Positions 7,003-13,374 of a stretch of 15,607 bases of DNA are shown here, one piece after another. The DNA is from Spirochaetes bacterium RBG_16_67_19. GTDB lineage: Bacteria > Spirochaetota > Spirochaetia > SZUA-6 > DRHE01. Within the stretch, counting starts at the first letter, position 1, and every line of letters starts with the position of its first letter. The translations under genes were made by a program, and so were the position numbers. Location of the stretch: contig MIBK01000161.1 of the NCBI GenBank assembly GCA_001829505.1, positions 1 to 15,607 of the forward strand, given 5' to 3'. Under the pieces are notes generated by a model. That model worked only from the letters and a program-made list of their open reading frames with translations, ran no database searches and was not told the origin of the DNA.

Positions 7003-7860
7003 CTAGGCCGCCGGGGCGATCGAGGAGCCGGCCCGCCCCCGGGCGAGGCGGCGCTCCAGCAGGCGCACGATCAGGGACAGGCTGATGGTCAGGGACAGGT
7101 ACAGGAAAGCCACCACGTTGTAGGTCTCGAAGAACTTGAAGGTGCTGGCCGCGTAGACCTTGCCCATCTGGGTGATGTCCTGCACGCCCAGGGCGCTGAC
7201 CAGGGCCGAATCCTTGATCATGGCCACCAGCTCGTTGCCCAGCGGGGGCAGCACGTTGCGCACCGCCTGGGGCAGGATGATGTGCCGCAGGGCCTGCCCG
7301 CGGCGCAAGCCCAGGGAGCTGGCCGCCTCCCACTGCCCGGCGTGGATGGACTCGATGCCGGCGCGGAAGATCTCCGAGATGAAAGCCCCGTAGCCGATGG
7401 TCAGGGCGATGATGGCCCGGGCGGTGAAATCCAGGCTGCGGATGTCCAGGGGCCGGACCAGGCCGCTGACCAGCAGCGGGGTCAGCAGGAAGTTCACGGC
7501 TTCCACCAGTCCCGGAGCCCCGATGAAGGCGATGTAGTAGAGGATCACCAGCATCGGCACCCCGCGGATGACCTCCACCCAGAAGGTGGCGATCTCCCGC
7601 AGCACCCGGGAAAGGGAGACCCGGCACAGGGCAATGAAAAGCCCGCCCAGCGTGGCCAGCACGAAGGCTGCCACCGAGACCCACAAGGTGGTGGCCAAGC
7701 CCCGGACGGCGGCCCGGAAGATGAGGCGGTAGTCCCCGCGGCTGGCCACGCTCCAGGCCAGCAGCAGGCCCAGCAGGATCACCGCCAGCAGCCAGAACGG
7801 CAGCTGCCGGAGGCCGCCGGACAGCGGGAGCAGGTGCTCGGAGCCGGGGCGGTCCTTCAA
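7003..7860 (-). CDS. polar amino-acid ABC transporter permease (HisM/GlnP family)
   Basis: 285 residues from TTG 7860, one base after the stop of the binding-protein gene. There are about five hydrophobic membrane segments (roughly 21-39, 54-81, 97-126, 146-168, 246-269). The ABC-coupling EAA loop is clear: [20 protein letters not shown], followed by [23 protein letters not shown], diagnostic of the HisM/GlnP/GltK family. The protein forms the membrane channel through which the cytoplasmic ATPase drives amino-acid import. It is second in an operon with the solute-binding protein, and the TTG start with almost no spacer implies translational coupling. No ATP-binding subunit gene follows; the next gene downstream is convergent and unrelated, so an ATPase encoded elsewhere must be shared. 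Confidence 0.92.
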
Positions 7861-7861
7861 G

Positions 7862-8647
7862 CTATTTCGCGCTGTACTCGAAGAACCACTTGGTATCCAG
7901 CCTGGCCAGGGTGCCGTCCGCCTTCATGGCCCGGATGGCGGCGTTGAAGGGGGCCACCAGGTCGGAGCCGGGCTTGAAGATGAAGCCGAAGTCCTCGGTG
8001 CCCAGGGGCTCTCCGATGACCTTGAGCTTCTCGGGATTGGCGCCCACGTACCCTCGGCCGGAGGCGGCGTCCATGAGCACGCAGTCCACGTCCCCGGCGA
8101 TCAGGGCCTGCACCGCGGCGCCGAAGGTCTCGAAGAGCTTGATGCGCGGATTCGCTTCGTCCCCGTCCAGCACGCTGTACACCGCCACGTAGAAGTTGGT
8201 CGTGCCGGCCTGCGAGCCAATCAGCAGCTTGGGGTCGGCGCCCAGCTCCGGGGCGCTGCGGAAGCGAGCCTCCTCCTTGCGCACCAGCATGAACTGCTGG
8301 CTCACCATGTAGGGCTCGGAGAAGTCCACCTGCTGCCTGCGCTCCTCGGTGATGGTGATCCCGTCCATGCCCACGTCGTACTGCCCTTCCCGCACGGCCT
8401 GGATCATGGTGTCCCAGGCGGTCACGTTCCACTGCACCCTGGCCTTCAGCCGCCGGGCGATTTCGTTGACTGCGTCGTACTCCCAGCCCATGGCCTTGCC
8501 GGTCCGCGGGTCGACGAAGTTCAGCGGCAGGTAGGCGTTCTCCGTGACGGCGCGGATCAGGCGCCCCTTCAGGTCCGGCAGCTTACCCTGTGCGGAAAGG
8601 GAAACGACCAGCAGGAGGCCCAGGACCGCGAGTAGGAGCTTCTTCAT
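7862..8647 (-). CDS. extracellular solute-binding protein family 3 (polar amino acids)
   Basis: 261 residues from ATG 8647. The frame extends further upstream, but this start is fixed by a perfect AAGGAGGG (8653-8660) five bases away and by the signal peptide [20 protein letters not shown]. The mature part follows the family-3 periplasmic binding protein pattern: an N-terminal strand [55 protein letters not shown], the hinge [30 protein letters not shown] and a C-terminal [21 protein letters not shown]. It captures a polar amino acid or similar ligand and delivers it to the adjacent permease; the exact ligand cannot be told from sequence. It is the first gene of the operon, with a promoter at 8673-8701. 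Confidence 0.92.
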
Positions 8648-8701: not shown

Positions 8702-9728
8702 CCATTTGCTACTGCGAGACGTCGCGGAGAGGCAGCGCAGCGCCCAGATTGCCAGCCTGTCAGCGCACCTCGATGCAGCCACTCATCGTTTGCTCGAATG
8801 CATCAGGGGCTTCGACGAGGCGTGCGGCTGGCACGAGCAGGGTGCCGTTTCTTGCGCGCACTGGCTGGTCTGGCGGGTCGGATGGGACCCGGGCACCGCG
8901 CGCGAACGAGTGCGGGTGGCGAGGGCGTTGGGCAAGCTGCCCGCGATCGACGAAGCGCTTCGTTCCGGCAGGCTGTCGTATGCCAAGGTCCGGGCGCTCA
9001 CGCGGGTGGCGACGCCCGAAACCGAGCCGAAGCTCCTGGAAATGGCGATGGTGGCGACCGGGGCTCAGCTGGAGCGGCTGTGCCGGGGCTATCGGGCCGC
9101 TTGTGAGGGCGAGAGGGCGCCGGTGCCGGAGGAGCGTTCAGTACACCAGCGGCTGTTGCCTGGAGGAATGGTCAAGCTGGAGTTGGTGCTCGAGCCGGAT
9201 GAGGCGGATCTGATCCTGCGCGCCGTGGACCGTGCCCGGGAGGTGCACGCCGAGCAGGCCGAGTTGCCCCAGCCAGGGAAGGCCGCCGAAAGCGGTGGCG
9301 TTTCCGCGGAAACGTGCTGGCCGTCGCGGGCGGACGGCGCGGTGAGGCTCGCCGAGTCATTTCTCGCTGGCCATGCCGTGACGGGAACCGGCGGGGATCG
9401 GTTCCAGGTGGTGGTTCATCTGGGCCAGGAGGTGCTCGGCGCGGACGGCGCCTGGGCAGGGACCCTGGAAGACGGAAGCCGCGTTTCCGCGGAAACGCTG
9501 CGCAGGGTAGCCTGCGATTGCGGTCTGCTCGCCGTAAGTCAGGATGGAGAGGGGCTGAACATCGGCCGCCGTGCCCGCAGCGTTCCTCCTGCCATCCGCC
9601 GCGCCTTGATGCTGCGCGACCACGGCTGCGCCTTCCCGGGGTGCACGCACACGCGATTCCTGCACGCCCACCACATCGAGCACTGGCTCCACGGAGGGAA
9701 CACCAGCCTTGAGAACCTAGTCATGCTC

Positions 9729-9736
9729 TGCACCTT
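9729..9736 (+). repeat. left copy of 8-bp junction direct repeat (attL core)
   Basis: TGCACCTT, repeated in the same orientation at 13111-13118. It encodes Cys-Thr and part of Phe in the HNH motif. It is either the crossover core shared by element and target or a target duplication. Confidence 0.8.
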
Positions 9737-9760
9737 ATGCCGATATCGGCATAAGGTGCA
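9729..9760. repeat. perfect 32-bp palindrome at the left junction
   Basis: The first arm, TGCACCTTATGCCGAT, is followed directly by its exact reverse complement, centred between 9744 and 9745. It consists of the 8-bp target copy, a 16-bp palindromic spacer (9737-9752) and an inverted copy of the 8 bp that begins the left terminal repeat. The right end has no counterpart of the spacer. Confidence 0.9.
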
Positions 9761-9789
9761 CTATGCCGCCTGCCGGATTATGCCGACTT
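9753..9789 (+). repeat. left terminal inverted repeat (37 bp)
   Basis: Begins AAGGTGCACTATGCCGCC and ends GGATTATGCCGACTT; identical over 37 bases to the reverse complement of 13082-13118. It contains two spaced TATGCCG units, likely recombinase-binding sites. Confidence 0.92.
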
Positions 9790-9831
9790 CGGGGGCCCAC
9801 GGGCTATCGCAACGGTTGTTGCCGCTTGGGC

Positions 9832-9844
9832 TGGCGGCATAATC
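9832..9844 (-). repeat. left subterminal inverted repeat
   Basis: TGGCGGCATAATC; its reverse complement occurs at 13015-13027. It carries the same ATTATGCCG core as the terminal repeat in opposite orientation, supplies the TAA that ends the truncated HNH frame, and overlaps the stop codon of the third recombinase gene. Confidence 0.75.
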
Positions 9845-10835
9845 AGAGCGCGTTCAGGAAGGCCAGCAGGCGGTCGGGAGGCCGGTAACGGCGTGCGGCC
9901 GCGGGGCTGGGGGCGGTCTTGGCCAGGGCACGTTGCTTCGCGGCGAGGTCGACTGCGAGATAGACGTGGGTGGTTTCGACCGACTCGTGTCCGAGCCACA
10001 GGGCGATGACTGCGGAATCGATGCCGGCCTCGAGCATCCGAACCGCCCGTGTGTGCCTCAGGAGGTGGGGAGAGAGGCGCTTGGTGGTGAGCGAAGGGCA
10101 GGAGGCGGCGCCCGTGGCAGCATGCTTGTGTAAACGCTTCTCGACTGCGTCGCGGCTCATGAAACCGCCACGGCTGCTTGGGAAAAGCGGCCCGGTGGGC
10201 TCAGCGGGCTGTTCGCTGAGCCAGGCTCGCAGGACGGCGCAGGTCTCTTTCCGCAACGGGGTTACCCGCTCCTTGCGTCCCTTGCCCAGGCACCGGACGT
10301 GGGCCCCAGGCCCGTCAACCTCGAGGTCGGCCCGCGTGAGGTGAGTGATCTCCGAGACACGCAAACCGGTCTGCTCGGCGAGCAGCAACAGCGCGTGGTC
10401 GCGTCGGCCGATCCAGCTGGCGCGCTCCGGTGCCGCGAGCAAGGCATCGGTTTCCTGCTGGGTCAGGAACTGGACCGTCTTTCGGTCGAAGCGCTTCTGC
10501 GGGATGGCCAGCACGCGCTGGATCAAAGCGCTGTGCTCGGGAGCCTCGGTGGCCGCGTAGTGGAAGAAGGAGTGGATGGCCGACAGCCGTGCGTTGCGCG
10601 AGCGGGGCGAGTTCTTCCGCTGGGTCTGCAGGGAATCGAGGAAGGCGGTGATCAGCGGGGCTTGGAGGTCGGCGAGGAGGAGCTCTGAGGGGTTCTTCCC
10701 CAGCTGTTGCTGCACAAATCGCAGCAGCAGCCGGAAGGTGTCGCGGTAGGAGGCGATGGTGTTCGGGCTGGCTTGGCGTTGCTTGATGAGCCGATTGAGG
10801 AAAAATGTCTCCAGAAGGGGGGCGAGGTCGGTCAT
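9843..10835 (-). CDS. ritC: tyrosine recombinase, third gene of the RIT trio
   Basis: 330 residues from ATG 10835, chosen because it overlaps the previous stop as ATGA and has AGGAGG (10843-10848) seven bases upstream; the frame could extend six codons further. The N-terminal SAM-like core-binding domain spans about 1-105 (SPNTIASYRDTFRLLLRFVQQQ). The catalytic domain is complete: Arg159 (TGLRVSE), Lys185 (LGKGRKER), His257 and Arg260 (SPHLLRHT), His283 (WLGHESVETT) and Tyr292 (THVYLAVD), so activity is expected. It resembles XerC/D-type integrases. It is last in the three-gene operon and ends at the left subterminal repeat. The symbol follows the RIT convention by position and size; assignment to the RitC subgroup was not tested. 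Confidence 0.88.
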   Translation of the reverse strand: MTDLAPLLETFFLNRLIKQRQASPNTIASYRDTFRLLLRFVQQQLGKNPSELLLADLQAPLITAFLDSLQTQRKNSPRSRNARLSAIHSFFHYAATEAPEHSALIQRVLAIPQKRFDRKTVQFLTQQETDALLAAPERASWIGRRDHALLLLAEQTGLRVSEITHLTRADLEVDGPGAHVRCLGKGRKERVTPLRKETCAVLRAWLSEQPAEPTGPLFPSSRGGFMSRDAVEKRLHKHAATGAASCPSLTTKRLSPHLLRHTRAVRMLEAGIDSAVIALWLGHESVETTHVYLAVDLAAKQRALAKTAPSPAAARRYRPPDRLLAFLNAL

Positions 10836-11755
10836 GGACTCACCTCCTGGCAAAGGCTGCGGCGCTCGCTGACCAACAGGAGAAGCTCAGGGACCGCGCT
10901 GAGATACCAGTAGGTCATGGTCGGGTTGAGGTGGCCCAGGTAGGTGGACAGCAGGGGCAGCCGCGATTGCACCTGCACACCGCTGCGATACCAGCCGATG
11001 AGCGTCTGCGCGGCGTAGGTATGCCTCAGGTCGTGGATACGCGGGCGGCGTGGGCTGGCCGTGGCCAGACCCGCCCGGTCGATCAAACGATGGAACCGGC
11101 GATGGACGTTGCTGTAGATCAGCGGCTTGCCACTGCGCGAGAGGAACAGGCGCGAGGAGTACTGCAGGGGCAGAAGGCGGTCGCGAGTTCGGGCATAGCG
11201 GCCGAGGGCCTGCACGGTCGAGGGGTGAAGCGGGAGCTCACGGGACTTGCCGAACTTCGTCTCGCGGACCAGCAGTACAGCTCGGTTGTGGTCGAGGTCA
11301 CGGCGGTCAAGCCGTATGGCCTCCCCCACGCGCATGCCTGTGACGGCGAGCAAGCCCAGGAGGGTCATGTCGGTACAGGCACTGAGGCGATCCCGCTGTC
11401 CCCGCGCGGCCTCCAGGAGCCTCTGGATGTCCTGCTGCGAGTAGATGTAGGGTGTCGGGCGCCTGGATACGTGGCAGATCAGGTGATGAGGCGGGACCTC
11501 GGTCCGGGGATCAAAGGCCTGAGCGTACAGAGCAAACTGGCGGATGAGCCCTAAGCGGCTGGCAAACCAGTTGGGCGACGCCCCGAGCGGTTGGGTAGCC
11601 CACTGGAGGGCGAGCTTCGTCGTGATGCAGCTGCTGCCCTGAGCGAGCACTGACTGGACGAACTCCAGCAGGCGCCTGTCGGCATGCTGGAGCTTGTAGC
11701 CCATGGCGCGGCGGGTGGCGAGGTAGTCGGCGAGGATCTGGTGGAGGCTGTTCAT
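10832..11755 (-). CDS. ritB: tyrosine recombinase, second gene of the RIT trio
   Basis: 307 residues from ATG 11755, which overlaps the first gene's TGA as ATGA; GTG 11773 would add six residues. The catalytic set is intact: Arg142 (TGMRVGEAIRL), Lys167 (ETKFGKSREL), His241 and Arg244 (RIHDLRHTYA), His275 (YLGHLNPTMT) and Tyr284 (YWYLSAV). The N-terminal domain (about 1-100) begins MNSLHQILADYLATRRAMGY, a pattern familiar from short integrases of this kind. No strong Shine-Dalgarno precedes the start, so its translation probably depends on reinitiation after the first gene. It should act jointly with its two neighbours on the element ends; whether each has a separate role in strand exchange cannot be read from sequence. 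Confidence 0.88.
   Translation of the reverse strand: MNSLHQILADYLATRRAMGYKLQHADRRLLEFVQSVLAQGSSCITTKLALQWATQPLGASPNWFASRLGLIRQFALYAQAFDPRTEVPPHHLICHVSRRPTPYIYSQQDIQRLLEAARGQRDRLSACTDMTLLGLLAVTGMRVGEAIRLDRRDLDHNRAVLLVRETKFGKSRELPLHPSTVQALGRYARTRDRLLPLQYSSRLFLSRSGKPLIYSNVHRRFHRLIDRAGLATASPRRPRIHDLRHTYAAQTLIGWYRSGVQVQSRLPLLSTYLGHLNPTMTYWYLSAVPELLLLVSERRSLCQEVSP
10843..10848 (-). promoter_or_regulatory. Shine-Dalgarno deciding the start of the third recombinase gene
   Basis: AGGAGG on the minus strand, seven bases before ATG 10835, inside the end of the second recombinase gene. It favours ATG 10835 over the longer reading. Confidence 0.7.
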
Positions 11756-12957
11756 GCCAAAGCTCCGGGCCACCTCTGGGCGAGCTCGCGCAACCGGGTA
11801 TGGTCCACCTTGGCGTAGATCGCCGTGGTGGCGTGGTGGCGATGGCGCAGGACCTGTGAGATCTCCTCAAGAGTCGCTCCCCGGCGAAGCATGGTGGTGG
11901 CGGCGCTGTGCCTCAGGCGGTGAGCACCCACCGGCGGCAGCTGGGCGCGCTTGCAGGCGCTCCGGACGATAGCGATGATCGCGCCGCACTCCAGTGGGGT
12001 GTGGGGGGCCCGATGGCGCAGGAACACCGAGCGGCAGCTGGTCTTCCTGCGTCGCCGCAGGTAGGAGGCCAGCGCGCTGCCTACCTCGGCCAGAAGCGGC
12101 ATGCGGTCCTTGCGCCCAGCTTTGCCACGGATGAGTAGAATGCCCTCCGACCAGTCCACGTCCTCGAGGCTCAGCGCCGCCACCTCCTTCGCCCGCAGTC
12201 CCAGGCGAGCCAGTAGCAGGAGCACCGCGTAGTCGCGTCGGCCCAGAGTGCAGCGTCTGTCGCAGCTCTCCACGATGGCCTTCACCTGCTCGGCAGCGAG
12301 GTACTTGGGCAGGGAAGCCATTCGCCAGCCGGCGATCTTCGGCACAGCGCCCCTGAGGTCCGTGGCGATGTCGCCTCTGAGGTGCAGGAAGCGCAGGAAG
12401 GAGCGCAGGCCGGTGAGCGTCGCCCGGGTGCGCTCGAGGCTCGATCCCCGCGAGCTCTCCAGCACATAGCCCTTGACCGTAGCACCGTCGAGCCGACACA
12501 GATCCAGCTGCCCAGACGCTGAGGTCTTCACAAGCAACTGCCGGGCTACGCTGCGGTAGATTTGAGCCACACGGGGGCTGAGCTCTCGATCGTGGAGCAG
12601 CGAGCCCTCGTAGTCGATCAGCAACTGCTCCAGCGGTGTCTGTGGCGGCGCGGCCGCCGGAATCTCGGGCGTCAGCCCCGCCTCGGCAAGGTAGCGGCGT
12701 ATCGCAGCGAGGCTGCGGGGGCTCAGGAAATGAGTGTAGCCTTCAGCTCGCCTCGCGCGAAAGAATGAGTCGATCTGTTCATCGAATAGGTCGCGTAGGC
12801 CAAGGCCCTGCTGCTGGAGCCATCGGCTCAGGTGACTGGCGAGGCGCAGCAGATTCCGGCACGAGAGCATCGTGTAGCCCTGTCGAAGCAGGTACGACCT
12901 GATCTCAGCTACGTGATCGGCCAGGGGTCCGGAAATCCGGATGGTAGGGAAATGCAT
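11752..12957 (-). CDS. ritA: tyrosine recombinase, first gene of the RIT trio
   Basis: 401 residues from ATG 12957, preferred because GGAGG (12963-12967) is five bases upstream; ATG 12996 would add 13 residues without such a site. It is the longest of the three: an extra N-terminal helical segment (about 1-105) precedes the SAM-like domain (about 108-195) and the catalytic domain. Active-site residues are Arg255 (LGLRAKEVAAL), Lys279 (RGKAGRKD), His346 and Arg349 (AHRLRHSAAT), His372 (VLRHRHHATT, an Arg replacing the usual Gly of LGH) and Tyr381 (AIYAKVD). All six positions are present, so it is probably active. It is first in the operon, about 125 bases inside the right terminal repeat, so expression may be controlled by recombinase binding there. 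Confidence 0.88.
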   Translation of the reverse strand: MHFPTIRISGPLADHVAEIRSYLLRQGYTMLSCRNLLRLASHLSRWLQQQGLGLRDLFDEQIDSFFRARRAEGYTHFLSPRSLAAIRRYLAEAGLTPEIPAAAPPQTPLEQLLIDYEGSLLHDRELSPRVAQIYRSVARQLLVKTSASGQLDLCRLDGATVKGYVLESSRGSSLERTRATLTGLRSFLRFLHLRGDIATDLRGAVPKIAGWRMASLPKYLAAEQVKAIVESCDRRCTLGRRDYAVLLLLARLGLRAKEVAALSLEDVDWSEGILLIRGKAGRKDRMPLLAEVGSALASYLRRRRKTSCRSVFLRHRAPHTPLECGAIIAIVRSACKRAQLPPVGAHRLRHSAATTMLRRGATLEEISQVLRHRHHATTAIYAKVDHTRLRELAQRWPGALA

Positions 12958-12962
12958 TGTAA

Positions 12963-12967
12963 CCTCC
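12963..12967 (-). promoter_or_regulatory. Shine-Dalgarno deciding the start of the first recombinase gene
   Basis: GGAGG on the minus strand, five bases before ATG 12957; a small palindrome CCAACCGTTGG (12971-12981) lies just upstream and could be an operator or chance. Confidence 0.65.
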
Positions 12968-13014
12968 ATCCCAACCGTTGGTCGGGTAGAGGTCATAGTG
13001 CCTCAAGAGGCCCG

Positions 13015-13027
13015 GATTATGCCGCCA
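13015..13027 (+). repeat. right subterminal inverted repeat
   Basis: GATTATGCCGCCA, the reverse complement of 9832-9844, lying 54 bases inside the right terminal repeat compared with 42 bases on the left. Confidence 0.75.
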
Positions 13028-13081
13028 AGGGTAGAGAGAAAAACTCAATCGGTGGCAGGAAAACCGCGGGCCTGGCCGCGC

Positions 13082-13118
13082 AAGTCGGCATAATCCGGCA
13101 GGCGGCATAGTGCACCTT
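13082..13118 (-). repeat. right terminal inverted repeat (37 bp)
   Basis: Perfect inverted match to 9753-9789. Its outer 8 bases are the right copy of TGCACCTT. Beyond 37 bases the two ends diverge completely until the subterminal repeats. Confidence 0.92.
13111..13118 (+). repeat. right copy of 8-bp junction direct repeat (attR core)
   Basis: TGCACCTT, directly followed by CCATCATCACCTGGTG, the continuation of the HNH gene. Matches 9729-9736. Confidence 0.8.
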
Positions 13119-13374
13119 CCATCATCACCTGGTGCATGAGGGCGGGTGGACGATTATCGCGCAGGCGAATGGCGCTTTTACTTTCCACTCACCCGTTGGC
13201 AAGCCGCTTGCGCAGGAGCCACCACGGGAGCGCATTGACAACGTCCTGGTGTGGCTGCACGAATGGGCGCAGCAGAGGAACCTGGACCTCGGCCCTGAGG
13301 TCAACACGCCGCAGGGCGACGGAACGACCCCGGATTACGACCTGGTGGTGAGCGGGCTATTGTCGGCGGGGTGA
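13111..13374 (+). pseudogene. DUF222/HNH endonuclease, 3' part, separated by the element
   Basis: In the frame of TGC 13111 the sequence reads CTFHHHLVHEGGWTIIAQ and ends at TGA 13372-13374 with VVSGLLSAG. This is the canonical end of an HNH domain (the final conserved His residues after the LC) plus the usual C-terminal extension. It has no start of its own (GTG 13132 is only the first in-frame start-like codon). Joined to 8706-9736 it gives a continuous 428-residue product of normal length for the family. The tail itself shows no frameshift or stop, so the insertion looks recent. Confidence 0.88.

Follow-up and report, generated by a model that had tools for sequence, protein, structure and literature searches.

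The locus examined here raises the question of how an element that encodes three tyrosine recombinases enters a gene, and which bases at its two ends were brought by the element and which belonged to the target. RIT elements are widespread in bacteria; in the available part of a 2023 comparison (PMC10214605, Table 1) target specificity, the formation of empty sites and movement are listed for them as not tested. The window, by which we mean the whole stretch of 15,607 nucleotides analysed, holds such an element in a readable site and so offers one more place for testing an insertion rule, with which the question of how three recombinases move one element becomes experimentally approachable.

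A RIT element within an HNH gene

When positions 8706-9736 and 13119-13374 were joined, 1287 bases in frame were obtained, coding for 428 residues and a stop codon, with CTF-HHH at the joint. The 5' part of this gene was matched in 5 of 148 genomes, including the window's own. Seven loci fetched from two genomes of the window's order, G009 and G014, represented six distinct uninterrupted genes (L026 and L039 are one gene); their alignments cross the joint, gap-free there, and the joint region reads C-[RK]-[FL]-H-H. A weak match in G147 likewise aligned through the joint. The preliminary description had proposed a DUF222/HNH gene split by the element with a frame restorable to 428 residues, and had pointed to related genomes for the uninterrupted gene; the joined flanks and the relatives in G009 and G014 bear this out, and these relatives do have the 3' segment (13119-13374) that they might have lacked. 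Its claim of a readable empty sequence stands at the protein level, where relatives align through the joint, and not at the DNA level, where no empty allele of the window's HNH gene was found. As judged from sequence, the intact genes and identical spacers fit a recent and perhaps still mobile insertion. Genes for an ABC-transporter solute-binding protein and permease adjoin the split gene (window 7003-8644, minus strand; Pfam), and a minus-strand open reading frame at 13474-13929 matches the C-terminal half of DUF4143 only (profile positions 81-160), perhaps a remnant.

The unit's genes lie in the order ritA-ritB-ritC on the minus strand, from 12996 to 9843, with neighbours overlapping by ATGA (Table 1). 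All three products matched Pfam Phage_integrase, and alignment confirmed that each keeps the complete R-K-H-R-H-Y set first reported for them. For phylogenetic placement, a tree of 12 RITs and six Xer-like proteins was used, which included the elements of pHG1 and EbN1 plasmid 2, treated as RIT carriers in the available part of PMC3414803. The window proteins fell in the RitA, RitB and RitC clades with support of 1.0, 1.0 and 0.999, rather than outside these families; because each recombinase sits in its own clade, the unit is a true RIT. Identity to the 11 other RITs was moderate (RitA 32-43%, RitB 41-50%, RitC 52-59%). The available part of PMC8138268 describes a RitA with two core-binding domains and a RitC with an extra C-terminal helix; in the window's protein sequences, residues 38-105 of RitA give a SAM-like match and an Xer-like stretch follows from 129 on, and the C-terminus of RitC is conserved. 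The unit measures 3382 bp, near the approximately 3.5 kb of RITs, and has an inverted repeat and a palindrome at its ends. As a RIT it is complete and ordinary, and its site is clean; the part of interest is the insertion rule.

Table 1. Features of the split gene and of the inserted element, in window positions
Feature	Position	Strand	Remarks
Host half x, 5' part of split DUF222/HNH gene	8706..9728	+	Pfam DUF222 and HNH; relatives align across joint
Outer spacer O (TGCACC)	9729..9734	+	Palindrome end; by the family rule would be the donor hexamer, here identical to the target's
Palindrome TTATGCCGA-TA-TCGGCATAA	9735..9754	.	Same 20 letters in L153, L075 and L084
Inner spacer I (GGTGCA)	9755..9760	+	Reverse complement of O and P
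Left TIR	9761..9797	+	Inside the spacer; inverted-repeat pair I1
ritC	9843..10835	-	330 aa from ATG at 10835; tyrosine recombinase
ritB	10832..11755	-	307 aa from ATG at 11755; tyrosine recombinase; overlaps both neighbours by 4 bp (ATGA)
ritA	11752..12996	-	414 aa; tyrosine recombinase with additional N-terminal SAM-like match
Right TIR (TIR')	13074..13110	+	Inverted-repeat pair I1
Spacer P (TGCACC)	13111..13116	+	Plain end; target's own hexamer by the family rule
Host half y, 3' part of split HNH gene	13117..13374	+	Stop codon 13372-13374

The layout of the ends reads host-[O]-palindrome-[I]-TIR-body-TIR'-[P]-host, with spacers of 6 bp and with TIR and body spanning 9761-13110. Two features had gone unmentioned in the preliminary description: the stretch 9729-9760 is a perfect palindrome of 32 bp, and the unit ends in 45-nt inverted repeats with 93% complementarity. 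The unit size given there (3382 bp) stood; the placement at 9737-13118 is only one of nine equivalent ones, because TGCACCTT occurs at both 9729-9736 and 13111-13118, and by the family rule 9729-13110 (also 3382 bp) is the better. Additional copies of the arm motif TTATGCCG were seen inside both ends (9778-9786, 9832-9843, 13012-13024 and 13086-13098), and these are possibly further binding sites for the recombinases. No second copy was found in the window's own genome (83.67% complete), where the search hit nothing beyond the element itself and its inverted repeats, and a DNA search of plasmids with the element returned 0 records at 80% cover.

RITs of actinobacteria and proteobacteria, and also one in a genome that belongs to the window's own family, show an identical end layout. 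Since the genome is fragmentary (245 contigs), a RIT contig misjoined into the HNH gene during assembly was considered; the exact frame, the 6-bp spacers and the palindrome register match those of independent RITs on plasmids recorded as complete, and such an artefact can scarcely be credited.

Spacers at the ends of RIT elements

For comparison of the spacers, 31 RITs were parsed; 23 of them carried a palindrome in which 7 or more of the 9 arm letters were paired. The working table of 26 palindrome-bearing RITs was reached by leaving out L154 (P not found) and adding L013, L165, L168 and L171. Degenerate palindromes occur in L013 and L168, which were tabled, and in L129, which was left out and whose three hexamers start with TG by eye. 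L118, an S. fredii copy with an inner spacer of seven letters, not six, at its C end, was placed by hand; L166, L167, L169 and L170 were left out, their palindromes being unclear or their ends recombined or missing. Of 38 regions fetched, 12 were tabled, 5 were parsed and had no palindrome, and 21 had incomplete or unworked ends. Six further lineages were taken as a test, of which L165 and L168 were tabled; several contig-end loci lie outside the table.

Across the 26 RITs, O and P agreed at positions 1 to 6 in 24, 24, 14, 19, 18 and 17 cases, against shuffled means of 9.8, 7.0, 10.3, 6.8, 11.6 and 8.6. The agreement at positions 1-2 jointly was reached by 0 of 20,000 shuffles, as was that at positions 4-6, and position 3 was near chance (1827 shuffles). 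With one row per lineage and all-equal rows removed, 10 rows remained, for which 1 of 20,000 shuffles matched the agreement at positions 1-2 and 128 matched that at positions 4-6; the limits of arms and hexamers were judged by eye, and the 9-letter arms and the one-per-lineage set (15 rows) were our choices. Because positions 4-6 also exceeded chance, the homology may be longer than 2 bp. The two-base agreement is broken by L171 and L124 at position 1 and by L014 and L015 at position 2. As to classes, all three spacers were equal in 6 RITs (including the window), the reverse complement of I matched O only in 4 and P only in 2, O equalled P only in 3, and 11 showed none of these relations. The window obeys the spacer rule without testing it, because its O equals its P. 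The rule is absent from the available part of PMC3414803 and may already stand in Ricker 2013 or Nielsen 2017.

In the window, the equal hexamers could be read as the norm, with a two-strand exchange that demands a fully identical core, as with lambda or Cre. O equalled P in 9 of the 26 RITs, the window among them; it was unlike P in the other 17, and real empty sites (below) had a target hexamer different from the donor's. Family-wide this reading is contradicted and we hold it to be very unlikely, and single lineages could still behave in this way.

Empty sites and targets

To read empty sites, 150 flank bases from either side of ten insertions were joined and searched against plasmids. The direction, with the target hexamer at the plain end, was fixed before any empty site was read. 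Eight insertions gave a joint-crossing match, and ten empty loci could be read, every one of which exceeds the joined flanks by exactly 6 bp. For seven of these eight insertions (L120, L116, L122, L071, L084, L019 and L075) the empty-site hexamer was P. L071 is uninformative for polarity, its O being equal to P; in the seven insertions where O differs from P, the hexamer was P in six, O in none and neither in one. The last is L115, for which the empty site was read in the relative L174 (94.8% over 226 bases); this relative differs beside the site. For L117 only partial plasmid matches were found (best cover 77%) and none was read, and for L128 the plasmid search returned its own record only.

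These empty-site hexamers indicate that the plain end keeps the target's six bases and that the palindrome end brings the donor hexamer. The occupied and empty pairs thus define a core of six bases, with the target's bases kept at the plain end. An ordinary two-strand exchange in which a spacer mismatch is resolved at random, as in Tn916-like elements, would accommodate 6-bp spacers that need not match fully. The six informative empty sites all match the plain end and none matches the palindrome end, for which chance is approximately 1 in 64 with the direction named beforehand, and the agreement at positions 1-2 is unexpected on such a scheme, which we therefore regard as improbable.

Two other candidates were rejected. 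An earlier rule, that the target's bases are kept at the palindrome end, is contradicted by the empty-site hexamers. Target duplication by a DDE-type enzyme was set aside since the unit encodes no such enzyme and end hexamers often differ.

In the flanks, with frames read by eye and gene names taken from annotated records, conserved-motif codons were found to be hit repeatedly. In L123/L125, L124, L127-L130, L134, L167 and L168 the target is the catalytic HxxRH box in genes of other tyrosine recombinases, often of other RITs. Further targets are IS66 at its T-[AC]-K-[LM]-N box (L117, L120-L122), radC (L014, L015, L019; a RIT in radC is also mentioned in the available part of PMC3414803), the HExGH of a zincin-like gene (L075, L084), istA (L071) and HNH genes (the window and L171). 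L171 (G014:C1:44000-51500) is of another RIT lineage and lies in a relative's HNH gene, a few codons from the motif position used in the window.

Unusual RITs were also observed. Those with no palindrome (L012, L127, L130, L138, L156 and L170) have the same half of the target on both sides, as inverted copies, and their end hexamers are often reverse-complementary or similar; L167 has the palindrome at both ends and resembles a reciprocal product. Their sequences suggest recombination between two insertions.

Proposed route of insertion and comparison with known systems

Tyrosine recombinases join DNA via a 3'-phosphotyrosine, and they probe homology in the initial bases of the spacer that is exchanged. 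On the evidence above, we think it probable that a complete RIT inserted into the HNH gene by a polar exchange, by way of a circle and a one-strand swap, with approximately 2 bp of homology and the target hexamer left at the plain end. The unit would leave as a circle joining 13110 to 9729, so that TIR' is followed by TGCACC and the palindrome, i.e. GGCGGCATAG-TGCACC-TTATGCCGA. One strand would then be cut at the border of TIR' and the spacer and swapped with the target over the approximately 2 bp of homology, and replication would fix the product. In the relatives the element-borne hexamer lies at the palindrome end, its first two letters nearly always common to the target. If the unit were excised along this route, the HNH gene would be made whole again. 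A single exchange at that border predicts both the homology at letters 1-2, beside TIR' and host half x, and the target hexamer left at TIR'. Within one lineage the palindrome lies at the ritA end in some copies and at the ritC end in others (L116 and L117 against L115 and L118; L120 and L122 against L121), so that both sides can be used.

As to the form of the DNA at the exchange step, we give single- and double-stranded DNA about equal weight. The predicted circle junction forms a perfect hairpin in folding models, where 0 of 200 shuffles folded equally well, and a folded single-strand intermediate is possible. Tentatively, and at somewhat less than an even chance, the element would resemble an integron cassette that mobilises itself: the hairpin would rebuild one core site and be retained at one end of the inserted copy, with targets in conserved-motif codons, including the HxxRH box of rival tyrosine recombinases. 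Mismatch repair in the folded site would in that case make the three spacers alike and explain how they became copies of each other.

Equally tentative is a double-stranded circle with two equivalent core sites flanking the palindrome, either of which is used, with no hairpin; a change of the inner spacer would require the two sites to exchange roles, and new hexamers would be captured from earlier targets. In line with this, copies within a lineage differ in their palindrome end (L116 and L117 vs L115 and L118; L120 and L122 vs L121), TGGCCG, which is O in L075, recurs as the target hexamer of L084, the two insertions lying in genes of one kind, and GGCCGT, a spacer seen in S. fredii copies, recurs as the hexamer read at L174, an empty IS66 copy. 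Such a circle gives no simple reason for the reverse complement of I equalling O in 10 of 26 and P in 8 of 26 RITs (six in both).

Against known RITs, such as those of pHG1 of Cupriavidus necator H16 and of EbN1 plasmid 2, nothing distinctive was seen apart from a moderate identity: gene order, 4-bp overlaps, three clades, a size of approximately 3.5 kb and an inverted repeat with overlapping palindrome are all common to the window unit (PMC3414803, available part). The strand-biased circularizing elements (SE) are alike in their 6-bp spacer, with a donor hexamer at one end and a target hexamer at the other, and in polarity (PMC10214605, available part). Unlike RITs, SE carry intA-tfp-intB-srap, have no two-core palindrome and leave no empty site (same source); the window unit has three catalytic recombinases, and its list of open reading frames leaves no room for a further non-overlapping gene. 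The Tn554 family shares tyrosine recombinases and a 6-bp footprint and differs in its gene set, TnpA/TnpB/TnpC (PMC10214605 and PMC3414803, available parts). GInt islands likewise have several integrases per operon, all needed in GInt; in contrast to the three genes of the window unit, they have four, ginABCD, and carry cargo (PMC5385486, available part), and the ginC product is described as having no catalytic motif (PMC10214605, available part). Integron attC and CTX-phi attP sites likewise keep, at one end, a palindrome able to form a core site by folding, as may be the case in the window; unlike them, the window element codes for its own three recombinases.
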